IMG/VR virus record: IMGVR_UViG_3300042566_000775
Location: 1 to 31,493 of that record
Source of the DNA: a virus
Length of the DNA stretch: 31,493 nucleotides
Direction: 5' to 3' (one strand)
Below, piece after piece: positions 956 to 25,437 of the stretch (positions within the stretch are counted from its first letter, which is position 1; the number at the start of each line of letters is the position of its first letter). Position numbers and translations under genes: made by a program. The notes below the pieces were generated by a model that worked only from the letters and a program-made list of their open reading frames with translations, was not told where the DNA came from and made no database searches.

Positions 956-1333
956 ATGGGAAACAACATCTTTGATAAATTGACAGAAAAATATCCTTTC
1001 ATAACATTGTGCATGTATGCCAATGCAGAGTATATAGGCGTAGTACAGAACAGAGACGACATTGTCACAACCATCTACGACTTTGGAGCAGTGAAACATC
1101 AAGAAGATAAGATTCTATTCCTAGAACTAGCATCAACTTGGTGGTGGGAAAGCAATCGCAGTATTCCCATCAACATATTCTTGCGCAGAGACTGGGATCC
1201 TTTTCGTGGCACACTGCGCACTTTTAGCAACAAGGACTTGGAAATCCTACACGGTCCAACTTGTAGCCTATTAGATATAGCTCGCAAAAAGTCAAAACGC
1301 AAGAGTATTACACTGGTTCGACGGCTTGACTGA
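956..1333 (+). CDS. Hypothetical phage protein, 125 aa
   Basis: No family recognised. The protein is soluble-looking and has an acidic, aromatic middle (STWWWESNRSIPINIFLRRDW) and a basic C-terminus (RKKSKRKSITLVRRLD), which could bind nucleic acid. A conserved-looking phrase near the N-terminus (YIGVVQN) suggests a small beta-rich domain. It is divergent from the structural gene at 910 with only 45 nt between starts. Its 3' end runs 26 nt into the convergent gene ending at 1308. The gene is accepted as real because it fills the gap exactly, starts directly after a late-like box, and has no competing frame. Confidence 0.6.
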   Translation: MGNNIFDKLTEKYPFITLCMYANAEYIGVVQNRDDIVTTIYDFGAVKHQEDKILFLELASTWWWESNRSIPINIFLRRDWDPFRGTLRTFSNKDLEILHGPTCSLLDIARKKSKRKSITLVRRLD

Positions 1334-1877
1334 TCAGATTCATGTGCAGTGTAACTAATGCGGCATAAGAAATTGAGTGGCTACGCTTGAACGTGTAGCC
1401 CTGACTTTCGTCTCCATCCCACACTGACGCAAACACTTCGTCCCAAGGTCTCCGCTGCAAGTGCGCCTTACCAGGACGAATAATACTAATAAAAGCAGCC
1501 ATCCTGGGTATTGAATCTGGCCGCATGATTTTCAGTAAGTCTGTGTAATTGCCCACATGCACCAGCTGAGAAGCCCAGGCTCCATCGGTCCACAGTCGAC
1601 TCCATGGAGGTTGTTGGCTCAACATGGCTTTGTAGTGCTCAGGACTTTTTACCAAGCTGTACACACTCATGTTCAACAAGTCAATTTTGAAATAACCTCG
1701 CTGTTCTGCTGTTTCATAATCCAGGGCAGCACAGCGGTTCACGGCATCAACTGGTATGTCTGTGACATAAACGCCAGAGTTGTGACGGCGCCCATTGCTC
1801 TGACGTGCTGGAACATGCTGAATCAGCTTCAGCAATGCGTCCCTGTCGGGCATGTCAATGTCAATATCTGCGCTCAT
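1308..1877 (-). CDS. Miniature DNA polymerase III alpha-like protein (palm/fingers motifs only), 189 aa
   Basis: This small protein carries, in the correct order, short motifs of bacterial replicative polymerase PolIII-alpha (DnaE). ADIDIDMPDRD at 3-13 matches the PDIDIDF.DR block with the first two catalytic aspartates. HNSGVYV at 32-38 matches the H.SGV block. GYFKIDLLNM at 61-70 matches GLxKFDFLGL, which holds the third aspartate. MRPDSIPRMAAFISIIRPG at 118-136 matches the PxSxxxLxAxxALxRPG finger motif, and FKRSHSISYA at 163-172 matches FxKSHAxAYA. The PHP domain, HhH, beta-binding and OB regions are absent, and the protein is about one sixth of DnaE length. It is the last gene of the 5159-1308 operon, with an ATGA overlap to the gene before it. 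Polymerase activity is not shown. It may be a template-binding or regulatory derivative. Confidence 0.7.
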   Translation of the reverse strand: MSADIDIDMPDRDALLKLIQHVPARQSNGRRHNSGVYVTDIPVDAVNRCAALDYETAEQRGYFKIDLLNMSVYSLVKSPEHYKAMLSQQPPWSRLWTDGAWASQLVHVGNYTDLLKIMRPDSIPRMAAFISIIRPGKAHLQRRPWDEVFASVWDGDESQGYTFKRSHSISYAALVTLHMNLISQAVEPV

Positions 1878-5159: not shown

Positions 5160-5227
5160 AAATAAAAATGTCAATCGCGATCTTGCAGGATCCATTGACT
5201 CTAACAGTTTACAAGGAACTATCAGCC

Positions 5228-6088
5228 ATGTATTTACAAAACAAATATACTAAATGTTATTATAGCATCATTAATCGTGCAAAGTCAAGAGATTTGCCAA
5301 AAGAAACTTATACAGAAAAACATCACATTATCCCAAAAAGTCTAGGTGGGGCAAATGATCAAAATAATCTAATAAGACTTACTGCAAAAGAACATCGCCT
5401 TGTTCATATTTTATTACCTCGGATGACCATTGATCCTGCTCATACAAAAAGTATGTGGTATGCACTGTGGATGATGTTAAGAACAAAAAATGTTGCCCAA
5501 CAAAGAAAAATATCCAAAGGAAGTGCTTTCAATCTTGCCAAGATAGAAGTGGCAAAAAACTCATCACAATTGCACAAAGGTAAAACTGTATCCAAAGAGA
5601 CAAGAGAAAAACTGTCTAAATCTTGCGCAGGCAGGCTGTCAGCTTTTAAAGGAAAAACACATTCTGCCGAAGCAAAACAAAAATTGTCAGCAGCACATAA
5701 AGGTAAAATTACTTCTCCCGAAACAGTTGCTAAAATTTTAGAATCACGCAAGCACTATCGACATTCAGAAGAAACAAAACAAAAGATATCTGCTGGTAAC
5801 AAAGGAAAAACAACCACGCACACTGTTGAATCGAGACAAAAAATGTCTGACGCTAAAAAAGGGAAGACGCCAACTTGGTTAGTAGGTAAGCCTGCGCACA
5901 ACCGAGGAGTTGCACATTCCGCAGAAACAGTTGCTAAACTACAAGGACCAAAGCCTAAATTTAAGTGCCCGCATTGCGTTAGTATAGTTGGGGGACAGTC
6001 AAATTACAATCGCTGGCATGGTGATAACTGCAAAAAACTTATGCTATTTTCATCCACTCCAGCTTTTCTACAGAGAAAGGATAGTTAG
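5228..6088 (+). CDS. HNH homing endonuclease with NUMOD3 repeats, 286 aa
   Basis: The HNH core is at residues 30-60: EKHHIIPKSLGG (H32, H33), N47 in NNLIRL, and H56 and H60 in AKEHRLVH. Residues from about 115 to 240 hold five or six NUMOD3-type units (such as SAEAKQKLSAAHKGK, SEETKQKISAGNKGK, TVESRQKMSDAKKGK), which bind the target DNA. The C-terminus has a small zinc-site pattern (CPHC, then RWHGDNC). The start at 5228 is chosen because AAGGAA lies about 10 nt upstream and homologues begin here; an in-frame ATG at 5168 is possible. The gene is more AT-rich than its surroundings and lies alone on the plus strand. Its last 50 nt overlap the 3' end of uvsW. These are marks of a mobile gene inserted at a conserved phage locus. 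Confidence 0.9.
   Translation: MYLQNKYTKCYYSIINRAKSRDLPKETYTEKHHIIPKSLGGANDQNNLIRLTAKEHRLVHILLPRMTIDPAHTKSMWYALWMMLRTKNVAQQRKISKGSAFNLAKIEVAKNSSQLHKGKTVSKETREKLSKSCAGRLSAFKGKTHSAEAKQKLSAAHKGKITSPETVAKILESRKHYRHSEETKQKISAGNKGKTTTHTVESRQKMSDAKKGKTPTWLVGKPAHNRGVAHSAETVAKLQGPKPKFKCPHCVSIVGGQSNYNRWHGDNCKKLMLFSSTPAFLQRKDS
5259..5288 (-). promoter_or_regulatory. Possible sigma70 promoter inside the endonuclease gene, reading towards 5159
   Basis: On the minus strand TTGACT (5283-5288) is followed after 18 nt by TATAAT (5259-5264) with a TGC extension, like the early promoters at 9.8-10.6 kb. It lies about 100 nt upstream of the ATG at 5159 and antisense to the 5' end of the endonuclease gene. Chance occurrence in AT-rich DNA cannot be excluded. 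Confidence 0.35.
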
Positions 6089-7508
6089 CTTCTTTATAGA
6101 AGGCCTTGCGTTTGGTCAAATGACGTTTGGCAAACTTGCAGGTACTGGTAATGTCCCAAATTTGAACATGATCCTTGTCCTCTGCTTTTCTTATGCCGCG
6201 GCCAATGCTTTGGATAACACGGACAAAACTTTTTCCAGGTTCAATAAGAACCAGATTAAAAATCCTAGGGATGTTAATGCCCACAGCGGCAACACCATAG
6301 GTAGCCACAATAATCTTATCAACGCTGTCCGCAACTTTGTCATATTCTTCTTGTCTTTTTGTTCCTTTTGTTGCGCCCGATACAAACACAGCACAATCGC
6401 CTAGGCGTTCTAATAATGCGTGGCCCGCCGCAACTCTGTCAACCAACACCAACGTATTTCCAGTTTCGTTTACCTTGCGTATAAGTTCAGCCATGGTGTC
6501 TAAACGACCCGACTCTTCCAGCAAGTATTTAAGCTCGCTTTGATATTCTTTGTACTCCACATGATCTACCAGTTGCACAATATTCACGTGACAGTTGGCC
6601 AAAACACCTTGCTGTTGCAGTTCGTTGGCACTCAAGCGACCAACTACAGGACCAAGTCCTACTAACAATGCTTGACTCTCAAACTTCTCTTTGGGAATAG
6701 TTCCGGTCAAACCCCAGCGAATTGGCACTCTAGCCATTACACCTGTCAGCAGAGTTTTCAGTGCATCTGCCTTGGCCATGTGTACTTCGTCTACAATAAC
6801 ACATACAACGCCTTCAAGGAACTCACCAATGGTACAGTCGCCTACCCCTGCCTTGGTATTCTTTAACAAGATATTCAAACTCTGCCAGGTGCAAATAGTG
6901 TGAGTGCGGCCGTACTCTTTTCTATCGCCAAAATAAACACCAACATCTTGTTGCATGTTGATGTAATCTTTTTCTGTTTGTGTTACTAGACTCTTGTTGG
7001 GCACAATCACAATGCTTCGCCCATAAGGTGCAACTGCATTGCTCAGGGCCGCTGTCATGATTGTTTTACCTGCACCTGTTGCTACTTCTTGCAGGCATTG
7101 CGGATTGGCTAAAAAGTTGTTTACGATTTCAACCTGGTAGTCCCGCATCATTATGGGTTCACCTGTGGCAGGGTGTCCTTTGGGCCACTTCACATGTGCA
7201 AATGAATCCTCACGTACCTGTTCAAAGTTAAAAGTGTTTGAATAGTCGCGTTGGTCATCCAGTTCAATATCATAATCAAACTTCTCAAGGATGGGAATGA
7301 TTTCAGGTAGCAAGTTTGTGTAGGTACTGCCTCCTAACTGGAAGTATGCTATCTTGCCGTCCCATCTTCCTAGACGCACCGCTGGCATGTAACGTGCGGC
7401 AGGGTTTTCGTATTTGAATGCTGTGACCAGGCGCTTGCGCATGTCAAGATCCAAGCCCTCAATTTTGATGTTTACTTCGTCGCGGATAACAATGGTTGCT
7501 TGTTTCAT
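6039..7508 (-). CDS. uvsW: UvsW, ATP-dependent DNA/RNA helicase (superfamily 2), 489 aa
   Basis: All main SF2 motifs are visible: the Q-like MRDYQ before motif I, Walker A ATGAGKT at 143-149, DEVH at 240-243, TGT at 268-270 (motif III), and the C-terminal motif VI QSIGRGIRKA. The N-terminal about 100 residues match the extra substrate-binding domain of UvsW (RLGRWDGKIAYF). In T4, UvsW drives branch migration and fork regression and unwinds R-loops, helping the switch from origin- to recombination-dependent replication. The length is close to the 502 residues of T4 UvsW. The ATG at 7506-7508 forms an ATGA overlap with the upstream gene; an earlier in-frame start would add eight residues. Its 3' end is overlapped by the endonuclease gene on the other strand. 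Confidence 0.93.
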   Translation of the reverse strand: MKQATIVIRDEVNIKIEGLDLDMRKRLVTAFKYENPAARYMPAVRLGRWDGKIAYFQLGGSTYTNLLPEIIPILEKFDYDIELDDQRDYSNTFNFEQVREDSFAHVKWPKGHPATGEPIMMRDYQVEIVNNFLANPQCLQEVATGAGKTIMTAALSNAVAPYGRSIVIVPNKSLVTQTEKDYINMQQDVGVYFGDRKEYGRTHTICTWQSLNILLKNTKAGVGDCTIGEFLEGVVCVIVDEVHMAKADALKTLLTGVMARVPIRWGLTGTIPKEKFESQALLVGLGPVVGRLSANELQQQGVLANCHVNIVQLVDHVEYKEYQSELKYLLEESGRLDTMAELIRKVNETGNTLVLVDRVAAGHALLERLGDCAVFVSGATKGTKRQEEYDKVADSVDKIIVATYGVAAVGINIPRIFNLVLIEPGKSFVRVIQSIGRGIRKAEDKDHVQIWDITSTCKFAKRHLTKRKAFYKEANYPFSVEKLEWMKIA

Positions 7509-8368
7509 TCTAGTATTACTTGTTGCACCCATTGGCGCTGGGCTATTTCAAACAACAACTTTTCTCGATTGCCGTCAAACTCTAGTTTGGCAACAGGAAA
7601 GCGCAGTGGTTGTGCTTTTATATTATACACACTCTTGATGTTGTGTGCAACAAAAAAGTCTTGATGTTGATCAATGTAGTTTTGAACACGGCCATAAATG
7701 TCACTTAGGTTACGATCGTAAAATGCAACATTGAAGTCTGCACTGTAGTGACTGAATGGCCGGAACGCATCTTGGCCTATGTACTTATCGTTGTCGTTGG
7801 CAAGATCTTCTACAGTTTTGCCAATTTCGCAATAGTTTAGATAAACTGTGCCAAATTGTATGTCCCAAGTGCCGTACATACCTTGCAGATCTGGATCTAG
7901 TTTGTGAGCCTTGGGCATACCAAACCAAGTGCACACAAATCTTGGGTGAGTTCCTGCCGCCACACTTTCACAACGATGCACTGCCAAGTTCAAATTGGCC
8001 AGAGCTTGGCGCACAGACTCGGGTGCTGATTTCCAAAAGTCTGATGTTTGCTGATCTAGCAAGCCGTGATGCACTTCAAATATGTGGTGCAGATAATTGA
8101 GATAGTCTTGCGATAATTCAAACTTGCCATGTATGATGTGTTGGTGGCTGTTGATGGTATGCACACAATCCTGAATCATGGCCACAGCGCGATCATGCTC
8201 TTGTGCTGGAGTGCCAAATCCGTAGAATCTGTCAGGGTTGTCCATGGGCCAGGCTGTGCGTTGTAGCATACGCTCAACCCAGCGTTCAGCCAGCGGCGAA
8301 GGAATGATTCGAAATCGCAGATCAAGATCTTTGTTATGCCCTAGACTGATGCGCAAAAATTTAAACAT
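7505..8368 (-). CDS. Hypothetical phage protein, 287 aa, first gene of the uvsW operon
   Basis: No family is recognised. The protein is rich in His, Asp and aromatic residues. It has a long central part (DPDLQGMYGTWDIQFGTVYLNYCEIGKTVEDLAND) and the phrase DAFRPFSHYSADFNVAFYDR, but no known catalytic pattern. There are no signal peptide or membrane segments. It is co-transcribed with uvsW (ATGA overlap). A good sigma70-like promoter at 8374-8402 ends only 5 nt before its ATG, so its mRNA may be nearly leaderless; no Shine-Dalgarno site is present. Similar unassigned proteins accompany uvsW in aquatic T4-like phages as far as I recall, which is weak evidence. Confidence 0.65.
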   Translation of the reverse strand: MFKFLRISLGHNKDLDLRFRIIPSPLAERWVERMLQRTAWPMDNPDRFYGFGTPAQEHDRAVAMIQDCVHTINSHQHIIHGKFELSQDYLNYLHHIFEVHHGLLDQQTSDFWKSAPESVRQALANLNLAVHRCESVAAGTHPRFVCTWFGMPKAHKLDPDLQGMYGTWDIQFGTVYLNYCEIGKTVEDLANDNDKYIGQDAFRPFSHYSADFNVAFYDRNLSDIYGRVQNYIDQHQDFFVAHNIKSVYNIKAQPLRFPVAKLEFDGNREKLLFEIAQRQWVQQVILE

Positions 8369-22947: not shown

Positions 22948-25437
22948 TCACTTGCGCAGGGCTAGCGATTTTATTCTTGCCAATGGATCTTGAGATTCAT
23001 AATAGCTGCCGGTTATGGCTGCATTGTAGTTGATCGGATCATCAGCCTCCGCCACACCTTGCTTTCTATTATCCAATTTGGTAAACGCTTTAACAAAATT
23101 AGGACCACTTTTCATGCGTTTTGTGTCACTGCGTTTTGTGGGATCCATTCTGTGTTTAAGATTATCTTTATCTAATTTTGTTAGATAACTGGTTAGCGTA
23201 GCATCACTAACCTCCGCCACACCTTGCTCGCTCTCGCCTATTTCAAGTTCGCCACGACTAGCCATTCGGTTTTGTAGTTTATCCAGATTGCCTGACTGTA
23301 ACTGACTGTCAAGTTGTGGTAGCATTTGAGCAAGGGTAGCAGGATCCATTTCGATATCAAATTGATTTGATAGTATCTGTTGCCAATTTAGTATTCTTCT
23401 TTTTTCTGGGGTTCCCATAGGAGCCATGACTACTGCTTTTAGATATGCCATTGCTAAATGTGTTTTGTTTGTTCCTGAGCCTTCAGCCATGCCTTGTTTC
23501 ATGTTGCCCAGCATTTGCTCTACCTGTCGAACCCAACCTGAAACATCACTACTTCCAATCTCGTCTACATCGCCCACAAAGTCAGCAACTTCGTCAATAG
23601 CACTCATAACTTTTTCTGGACCGTACTTGGCCAGCAAGTCTGTGCGTTGCATCAAAATTCTACGTGTGATTGCTTGTGCAGCTGGGCTGTCTTCTTGCCC
23701 TGGATTACCCAACATGCCTTCGGCTGTGTCTTGTTCGCCCATTACAGTAGCTACACCGCCGGCTACTGTTCCCATTTCCATCATGCCACATTCCATTAAA
23801 CCGTGTTCTGGACAATATTCGCCTTCCATGGTCATGTTACAGCCGTTGCCTTCAACAAAAGTGGCCATGTTATCAGCTTCAGGCAATCGTGGTGCATAGT
23901 TGCCAGTGCCCAATTCCTGATCAAGTCGATCAGTAATCCACTCATACGGGTCACCGTCGCGACCTTTGGCAATACCATAAGGTATTTCGCCAGCGTCTGA
24001 GTAATAGTCAAACAGTGCATAGTACAAATCATTGTCCAAGTCGTCGCCAGTTTCAAATCGCTTGACTTCATTTTTGAATCTACTCAAAATATGGTCCAGT
24101 GTTTCGCCACTCTCGTCCAAGATTGCTTCCATCATTGGAGGGGATGCTGCACCAGGTGCGCCGCCTGCTGGGGGAGTAGGTGCTGGTTGCTCAAGACCTG
24201 CACTGGGTGTAGGCAATTGAACTCCAAGTTCTTTCAATCTACGTTGAACATCAGTATCGTCCCAGACGTTGGCGCGACCATCAGATCTCTGTGCTAGGTC
24301 TTGTAGTATGTCAAACAATTCATCGTCGCCAACCACATCATATAATTGTTCAGTAGCATTGGTAGCGTCGGGGCCAACAATGAGTTCTTTGGCCATTAGG
24401 TCATTGAGCTTTTGCTGAGTTTCGGGGTCGTCGGGCAATGCCCAAGTGCCTTCGCCCAGGGTCTCTACCCAAGATTCAAACATTTTAATTTCTTTCATAT
24501 CTTGTCCTTGTTTTTGTAATCTAGCCAGCAACGGTAAAGCTTCTTCAATTCTGGAATCAATACGTTGCTCAATGAATAAATTCTTGATACCTTCAACCAA
24601 CTCATCCTGCTCAGTTATTGTTGCAGGATGCCATGTTTCAAAATAAGATTTGTATCCACGTGGTGCTGCTAGATGTTTGATGTTTTCACGCAGTTGTTTG
24701 TAGTAATGCTGGGCCTGTTCTACAATTTGCTGTGTGACACCTTCCATTACACGACGGCTGCTGGCACGATTGAATCTGCTCAATACTGCAACTTCTCGTA
24801 TCATTTCTGTAATATGACTGCCACGTACATCATAGGGCTTGCCACCCTGACGCACATGTTCCAGCATGGCACGGGCTGCTGACAAACTACGAGACTCTAG
24901 TTTGAATCTTTCACCGTCAGTGGTTTCAATAAAAATACTTTCCACGTGACGATATCTAGCATCATCCTCACCTAGCTGTTGACTGTGTCGGATCATGAGT
25001 CTGGCTTCAGTGGGCTGGCCGCTGTAGCTCACAATTCGATTACCATAGTAACCTTCAAACAAGCCTTCTTTGATGGCTGCAAGACCTTGCATGGTGTACT
25101 TGAGTTGGTTTATATCTTGTGTGGTACGTGTCCAACGATTGCGACGAGCCAAGAGTCCCATGTGCTCTAGAAAATCAAAGAATTCATCTTTGTCTTGTGG
25201 CTCCATGGTACGTCCCAGATTGTCACCGTACATGATTTTCATGTCATTGTCAGTATCAAGCACAATGACCATGGTTCCGTAGTTTTTACCTGATCCTGAC
25301 ACATAATCAAAAGTAAAAGTTTTTGCGTCTTGTACTTGATTTGTAGGTTTACCATCTGCGCCCAGCATTTCTGTTTCAAAATTCCGGGTGGCAAGAGTGT
25401 CTTGTAATTGTTGTTCAATAGTGTTTTGTGTAGCCAT
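22948..25437 (-). CDS. Large multidomain phage protein, probable virion protein, 829 aa
   Basis: No family with known function is recognised. Residues 1-400 are a mixed domain region (FTFDYVSGSGKNYGTMVIVLDTDNDMKIMYGDN, then MLEHVRQGGKPYDVRGSHITEMI). A Pro/Ala/Gly linker follows (TPPAGGAPGAASPP, about 430-445). A Cys/His cluster CNMTMEGEYCPEHGLMEC could bind zinc. Three short repeats of Q-G-[VM]-A-E lie at about 648, 738 and 793, each preceded by K or E. They may be cleavage or joining sites between domains. It lies just after terL in the same direction, as virion genes often do; a virion or assembly role is inference. Its start has a TAAATA box and no Shine-Dalgarno site. Confidence 0.6.
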   Translation of the reverse strand: MATQNTIEQQLQDTLATRNFETEMLGADGKPTNQVQDAKTFTFDYVSGSGKNYGTMVIVLDTDNDMKIMYGDNLGRTMEPQDKDEFFDFLEHMGLLARRNRWTRTTQDINQLKYTMQGLAAIKEGLFEGYYGNRIVSYSGQPTEARLMIRHSQQLGEDDARYRHVESIFIETTDGERFKLESRSLSAARAMLEHVRQGGKPYDVRGSHITEMIREVAVLSRFNRASSRRVMEGVTQQIVEQAQHYYKQLRENIKHLAAPRGYKSYFETWHPATITEQDELVEGIKNLFIEQRIDSRIEEALPLLARLQKQGQDMKEIKMFESWVETLGEGTWALPDDPETQQKLNDLMAKELIVGPDATNATEQLYDVVGDDELFDILQDLAQRSDGRANVWDDTDVQRRLKELGVQLPTPSAGLEQPAPTPPAGGAPGAASPPMMEAILDESGETLDHILSRFKNEVKRFETGDDLDNDLYYALFDYYSDAGEIPYGIAKGRDGDPYEWITDRLDQELGTGNYAPRLPEADNMATFVEGNGCNMTMEGEYCPEHGLMECGMMEMGTVAGGVATVMGEQDTAEGMLGNPGQEDSPAAQAITRRILMQRTDLLAKYGPEKVMSAIDEVADFVGDVDEIGSSDVSGWVRQVEQMLGNMKQGMAEGSGTNKTHLAMAYLKAVVMAPMGTPEKRRILNWQQILSNQFDIEMDPATLAQMLPQLDSQLQSGNLDKLQNRMASRGELEIGESEQGVAEVSDATLTSYLTKLDKDNLKHRMDPTKRSDTKRMKSGPNFVKAFTKLDNRKQGVAEADDPINYNAAITGSYYESQDPLARIKSLALRK

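Follow-up and report, generated by a model that had tools for sequence, protein, structure and literature searches.

A Putative Half of a Split, Minimal DNA Polymerase III α Subunit Encoded by an Uncultivated Phage

A split, minimal form of the DNA polymerase III α subunit (PolIII-α) was described in 2021 in the "group 2.2" jumbo phages (Iyer et al., PMC7824862). In the passages of that paper that deal with it, the polymerase consists of two proteins encoded at distant loci, an N-terminal NTP-binding protein and a C-terminal metal/template-binding protein, and it is accompanied by a family-B polymerase (PolB) without other PolIII domains. The same passages propose that the halves likely reconstitute a catalytic enzyme, and that the minimal PolIII is a model of the ancestral enzyme (PMC7824862). 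One of the two proteins is known from individual phages: CBB_328 is described as a truncated PolIII-α (PMC5259590), and gp316 of Atu_ph07 as PolIII-α (PMC6102473). The genes in question coincide with our matches to the N-terminal half, the one in CBB being annotated as DNA polymerase III alpha (its tag, CBB_328, is taken from PMC5259590), and the passages on CBB_328 and gp316 do not mention a C-terminal half alongside them. A search of the open-access literature found no experimental test of split PolIII-α.

Here, we analyze a gene for a 189-residue protein in a 31,493-nucleotide stretch of viral DNA (the window, by which we mean the whole of that stretch), which we read as encoding the C-terminal half (C half) of such a polymerase. 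The locus agrees with the account of Iyer et al. in that the C half is a standalone unit with the DnaE metal-binding and fingers motifs, a separate N-terminal half (N half) is encoded far away in the same genome (contig G001, see below), and that contig has a PolB gene and no other PolIII domains that we could find. The window carries T4-like genes (a UvsW-type DNA helicase, a UvsX-like recombinase, a single-stranded DNA-binding protein [SSB] and a terminase), in agreement with the T4-like setting of their group 2 (UvsW, recombinase, T4-type SSB). Homologs of the C half are present in Atu_ph07, which is named as a group 2.2 phage in the part of PMC7824862 that lists it, and in RaK2, CBB, and 121Q. 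The present case differs from the phages of Iyer et al. in that the phage is uncultivated and its C half is 26%–41% identical to the listed members from named phages. We also place the split point on solved DnaE structures, using predicted models.

A DnaE-Related Protein of 189 Residues

The gene (Table 1) is an intact open reading frame (ORF) with an ATG start and no internal stops. The original prediction held that its product carries five DnaE motifs in DnaE order, and the motifs are indeed found at residues 4–8 (DIDID), 31–36 (RHNSGV), 63–68 (FKIDLL), 133–137 (IRPGK), and 163–172 (FKRSHSISYA). Searches of Pfam, NCBIfam, and PDB sequences with the single protein gave no significant match. 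In the PHROGs profile search, it is a member of PHROG_11778, labeled "DNA polymerase" (E = 1e-49), and it also matches phrog_405, a family of full-length phage DnaE proteins (E = 7e-6).

Table 1. Coordinates of the main features. Positions refer to the window unless contig G001 is named; assignments to PolIII-α are putative
Feature	Position	Strand	Basis or correspondence
Putative C-terminal half of split minimal PolIII-α, 189 aa	1308..1877	(-)	phrog_11778, tblastn, profile-profile, fold
DIDID strand, residues 4-8	1854..1868	(-)	D4 = E. coli D401, D6 = D403, D8 = D405
HNSG block, residues 32-35	1773..1784	(-)	H32 = H511, G35 = G514 of E. coli DnaE
K-x-D, residues 64-66	1680..1688	(-)	K64 = K553, D66 = D555, third catalytic aspartate
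Fingers R-P-x-K, residues 134-137	1467..1478	(-)	R134 = R639
FKRSH, residues 163-167	1377..1391	(-)	H167 = H760, modeled steric gate of E. coli PolIII-α
125-aa ORF, convergent, overlaps 3' end of C-half gene	956..1333	(+)	phrog_11637 (E = 3e-29)
UvsW-type helicase, upstream of C half	6039..7532	(-), same as C half	phrog_16, DNA helicase (E = 4e-73)
N half, 172 aa	G001:C1:123097-123612		PF07733, phrog_11127
Family-B polymerase	G001:C1:169800-171020		PF00136 (E = 1e-35)

We compared a profile of 17 C-half members with one of 8 DnaE-type polymerases. The part from HxxG to RPG aligned with a score of 71.9 and a probability of 96%, and the KSH part aligned with a probability of 77%; 100 column-shuffled C-half alignments scored at most 31.6 and the reversed alignment scored 20.6. 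The DIDID block alone was weak in local mode (probability 1%) and was misplaced in global mode, and its pairing with D401/D403 therefore rests on structural and manual alignment. Structural alignment puts residue 1 of the C-half model at E. coli residue 398–399, at most one residue off the register of the motifs. The manual alignment has 134 positions. Of the 14 that do not vary among the 8 DnaE proteins, 10 (D401, D403, D405, H511, G514, K553, D555, L557, R639, and H760 in E. coli numbering) hold the same, unvarying residue in the 17 phage proteins; the remaining 4 are invariant in DnaE alone, a further 9 in the phage family alone, and 111 in neither (Fisher p = 2e-7, a value that is inflated by common ancestry and was obtained with hand-chosen segments). 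The earlier mapping of D4, D6, and D66 to the catalytic aspartates D401, D403, and D555 was right, and D8, which corresponds to D405, is likewise invariant in DnaE. According to the sections of the literature that treat these residues, D401, D403, and D555 serve as metal ligands, D405 sets DnaE apart from PolC (PMC3919608), and H760 is the modeled steric gate of the E. coli enzyme (PMC8485763).

An AlphaFold model of the C half (pLDDT 91.3) has D4–D8 on or beside a strand formed by residues 5–9 and D66 on a strand formed by residues 65–69. Among the matches listed, the model aligned with 14 C-family polymerase entries with VIA-align Z scores of 6.3–9.8, the next, unrelated row having a Z score of 3.3; with Foldseek alone, the best E value was 3e-3. 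The Pfam model DNA_pol3_finger found no match in G001 even at E = 10, and so the fingers assignment rests on the profile-profile and fold evidence. This shows that the C half is itself below the reach of that model.

The segments between the motifs are strongly shortened, as had been noted: E. coli residues 418–508, which we take to be mostly thumb, are reduced to 9 residues in the manual alignment, and residues 644–740 (97 residues, from RPG to KSH) are also reduced to 9. The LRRAMGKKK stretch, whose arginines presumably touch the incoming triphosphate in DnaE, is lost with the second of these segments. What the phage proteins have in common with bacterial DnaE and PolC structures (2hnh, 3e0d, 3f2b, and 5lew) is the palm and fingers fold and the equivalents of D401, D403, D405, K553, D555, R639, and H760. 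Bacterial PolIII-α, however, carries PHP, thumb, complete fingers, HhH, and clamp-binding regions on a single long polypeptide, whereas the phage version comprises two chains (172 and 189 aa) that lack all of these. Judged by the features of the C family, the C half has the three catalytic aspartates (D401, D403, and D555), but the palm, which in that family shares one chain with thumb and fingers, is divided between two genes, and the PHP domain and the (HhH)2/clamp-binding part are missing, as is the OB region; the C half spans only E. coli residues 399–780. The absence of PHP, clamp-binding, and OB regions had been predicted correctly.

Catalytic residues are conserved in all relatives examined that reach their positions. 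In 17 diverse C halves the invariant residues are D4, D6, D8, H32, G35, P42, K64, D66, L68, and W92, followed by L105, P120, S122, A127, I133, R134, P135, K137, H167, and Y171. Over all fetched loci, 200 ORF matches gave 152 distinct C halves, counted without a length filter. D4, D6, and D8 are kept in all 152; H32 and G35 in 151 of 152; K64 and D66 in all 151 that extend that far; and R134 and H167 in all 150 that extend to them. The only ORFs without some catalytic position are a truncated copy in locus L018, which is the exception for H32 and G35, and a contig-edge fragment (L290). Because some of the IMG/VR loci were fetched with patterns that hold the catalytic motifs, these counts favor invariance, and the set of phage records found by tblastn, which is free of that bias, is the fairer witness. 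The original prediction took the motif order and the intact aspartates to argue against decay, and in this it was right.

The truncated copy is a second C-half sequence of about the first 31 residues (L019:3733-3891; also in L018, L020, and L025). It lies upstream of the intact gene, at a distance of 1.3 kb that includes an unrelated ORF, as if the insertion of a gene cassette had duplicated the 5' end.

The Putative Second Half and Its Fit to the First

DnaE has an R362-G363-S364 motif before DIDID, which is invariant in the 8 DnaE proteins and absent from the C half. We looked for it in G001, a 209,543-bp contig to which window positions 1–26418 are 99.95%–100% identical over 26,418 bases. 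G001 encodes one C half (24539-25102) and one N half, about 98 kb away. The N half is the small ORF with the contig's single match to PF07733 (PolIII-α, DNA_pol3_alpha), which is above the Pfam curated cut-off, and it is a member of PHROG_11127, labeled "DNA polymerase" (E = 2e-40). Its 172 residues stop at the equivalent of E. coli residue 393. Both halves are clear members of their PHROG families, and the labels are silent on the two belonging together. Neither PF02811 (PHP; E 0.01) nor PF14579 (HHH_6; E 0.1) had a match in G001, a contig that may be incomplete. Residues 1–69 of the N half had no Pfam match, leave no room for a PHP domain, and were barely covered by the fold comparison, in which the alignment begins at E. 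coli residue 278.

The equivalents of R362, G363, and S364 are kept in all 66 distinct N halves (from 90 ORF matches, again without a length filter). The DnaE-invariant R390 is glutamate in 66 of 66, and the DnaE-invariant T377 and P381 are also replaced in the manual alignment. R390, the arginine of the DnaE FERF motif, corresponds to E170 in the N half of our phage (P0001), right at the split end, where the glutamate is possibly an adaptation of an interface.

The AlphaFold model of the N half (pLDDT 81.4) is least confident in the RGS stretch, with residues 141–144 below a pLDDT of 50, as would be expected if the other half were required. Among the matches listed, it aligned with 12 C-family entries with VIA-align Z scores of 6.1–10.1, and the next row had a Z score of 2.5; with Foldseek alone the best E value was 0.34. 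The separate models of the two halves tile on the solved structures: on E. coli PolIII-α (2hnh) the N half covers residues 278–393 and the C half 399–780, on 5lew they cover 305–413 and 418–807, and on 3e0d they cover 294–455 and 460–837; each time, four or five residues are left between the two.

In cyanobacteria, DnaE is also encoded by two genes, and a split intein joins the products by protein splicing near the KSH motif. That system, which is mentioned in PMC3919608, is spliced at another site. We rejected a split intein for the phage proteins, as both halves end at the split and have no intein-sized room. The profiles phrog_13169 (463 positions) and phrog_7513 (461 positions) end at most about 60 positions past the part that matches the N half, and they may represent longer N-terminal parts of further split PolIII-α proteins of phages.

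Distribution and Gene Neighborhoods

Relatives of the C half were found by tblastn in 63 of 50,697 phage records, 61 of them with a coverage of at least 80%. For the 60 of these 63 that were listed, identity to the C half is 26%–41%; most are longer than 280 kb, and their hosts include Pseudomonas, Klebsiella, Escherichia, Salmonella, Erwinia, Agrobacterium, Sinorhizobium, Vibrio, and others. Some members are annotated as DNA polymerase or DnaE-like, and many as hypothetical or membrane protein. Among IMG/VR stretches, one pattern search gave 130 confirmed C halves and another gave at least 598. The original prediction of a widespread but undescribed family is therefore borne out as to its spread, and corrected as to its novelty by the label of PHROG_11778 and by the description in PMC7824862.

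The two halves occur together. Comparing the listed records (60 of 63 for the C half and 60 of 67 for the N half), we found 59 of the 60 C-half records among the N-half records, the exception being a record of 109.5 kb; one listed N-half record, from a Stenotrophomonas phage, is absent among the listed C-half records. Escherichia phage Sharanji, whose host is given as K12 MG1655, is among the phages that carry both. We also examined two sets of 10 large IMG/VR contigs, the first picked for the C half and the second for the N half. The N half was present in 8 of the 10 picked for the C half, and the C half in 6 of the 10 picked for the N half. Each of the 14 contigs with both halves has one copy of each, on the same strand (14/14), and in 13 of the 14 linear contigs the C-half gene comes first in the reading direction, which is the reverse of the DnaE order. 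A PolB gene was found in 15 of the 20 contigs, among them 11 of the 14 that have both halves; the 6 contigs that lack one half and the 3 two-half contigs without a PolB match may all be fragments.

Replication genes are frequent neighbors. In G001, the N half is followed within about 2 kb by a clamp-loader gene, as it is in RaK2, XacN1, SCTP-2, and Atu_ph07, 4 of the 7 annotated named phages that we viewed; in the other three (PA5oct, Phosso, and Vibrio phage 2.275.O), the part of the locus viewed showed none. A primase or a replicative helicase is encoded no more than 4 kb downstream of the C half in 8 of 9 annotated named phages viewed, XacN1 being the one without. As in the window (Table 1), a helicase gene is found a few genes before the C half in RaK2 (where it is named uvsW), GAP32, and XaC1. 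The convergent 125-aa ORF has relatives in 58 phage records, and in 8 of the 9 annotated named loci viewed, the gene immediately 3' of the C half is on the opposite strand, again with XacN1 as the exception.

Several further observations were made on these stretches. In the window, a homing endonuclease gene at 5168-6088 (+; phrog_655, E = 2e-50) is on the opposite strand to its neighbors and overlaps the 3' end of uvsW. The T4-type late promoter TATAAATA had no match in the window. A phrog_931 "head morphogenesis" gene (L297:5856-6257) stands between the N half and the clamp loader in our phage. In PA5oct, Phosso, and Vibrio phage 2.275.O, the like-placed gene, two after the N half, bears the annotation chaperonin or co-chaperonin.

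We considered an epsilon-type exonuclease as a partner in a PolIII core because epsilon-type genes are present in CBB (PMC5259590), in Atu_ph07 (PMC6102473), both as given in the parts of those papers that list such genes, and in XacN1, where the gene is 2.3 kb from the C half. We rejected this arrangement: PF00929 was found in 2 of the 20 large contigs and not in G001.

What the Two Halves May Do

We put at roughly two in three the probability that the 189-residue protein is the C-terminal half of a two-protein, DnaE-related polymerase core of a T4-like jumbo phage, with a composite active site and a capacity for limited synthesis beside PolB; homology, tiling, conserved residues, and co-occurrence are what we observed, and the pairing and the activity are what we infer. 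The C half would provide the metal-binding strand of the palm, another palm segment, and fingers of reduced size, and the N half would supply the palm segment with the R-G-S motif. On association of the two chains, the RGS loop of the N half would dock next to the C half's metal site (D4/D6/D66) and so complete a single nucleotidyltransferase active site. Conservation of the metal ligands and of the dNTP-selecting histidine points to chemistry on dNTPs. With about 9 residues for the thumb, short fingers, and no PHP, tandem HhH, or clamp-binding region, processivity of the pair alone should be poor, and the loss of thumb, mid-fingers, and clamp-binding parts disfavors a processive replicase, a role served by PolB. 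Short DNA synthesis is therefore the probable activity, in gap filling, repair, or the finishing or re-starting of lagging strands, beside the family-B replicase. A more specific proposal, which we advance tentatively, is that the two chains, together about 360 residues long, form an active C-family DNA polymerase that lacks a thumb and that T4-like jumbo phages keep as a second, specialized polymerase beside PolB; such an enzyme would perhaps be the smallest C-family polymerase.

The halves might instead form a nucleotidyltransferase that reuses the DnaE site without being template directed, such as a terminal transferase, an end-modifying enzyme, or a nucleotide sensor. Retention of the catalytic residues alongside loss of the thumb, mid-fingers, and clamp-binding region would suit such an enzyme, as would the change of R390 to glutamate and the phage's possession of its own PolB replicase. 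We nevertheless consider it the less likely reading, since the histidine that selects dNTPs over rNTPs and the RP motif of the fingers are invariant, which argues for dNTP chemistry, and the neighbors include replication genes. It is quite improbable that the proteins act without catalysis, in a structural or regulatory role such as a replisome scaffold or template-binding factor. Their small size, the presence of invariant residues outside the active site (for example, W92), and neighboring genes annotated as virion structural proteins in loci of named phages are compatible with a role of that kind, but invariant metal ligands and an invariant steric gate at 26%–41% identity would be unexpected.

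Two further readings concern the C half by itself. The original prediction raised the possibility of a minimal polymerase consisting of the 189 residues alone, and the protein modeled without a partner folds well (pLDDT 91.3) and has all three metal ligands. This is very improbable, however, because the R-G-S palm segment is absent from it and is located in a second conserved gene of the same phage, with which it nearly always co-occurs. The PHP, clamp-binding, and OB regions of DnaE contact its partners in the replisome. A decoy that sequesters parts of the host replisome, which had also been suggested and for which nothing speaks beyond the resemblance to DnaE, would be expected to keep such regions, but it is these that are missing and the catalytic residues that are kept; the protein is also found in phages of hosts as diverse as Pseudomonas, Agrobacterium, Vibrio, and enterobacteria. 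We regard a decoy as barely credible.

If the two halves pair as a polymerase core, jumbo phages hold a natural minimal core of the bacterial replicase and a second polymerase beside PolB. The pair would then define a minimum for a functional PolIII active site and would indicate that such a site can be built from two independently expressed proteins. For annotation, many of the genes called "hypothetical" or "truncated DNA polymerase III" in these phages would be two matching halves. The proposal of Iyer et al. on the ancestral enzyme would, given pairing, become directly testable with two small proteins.
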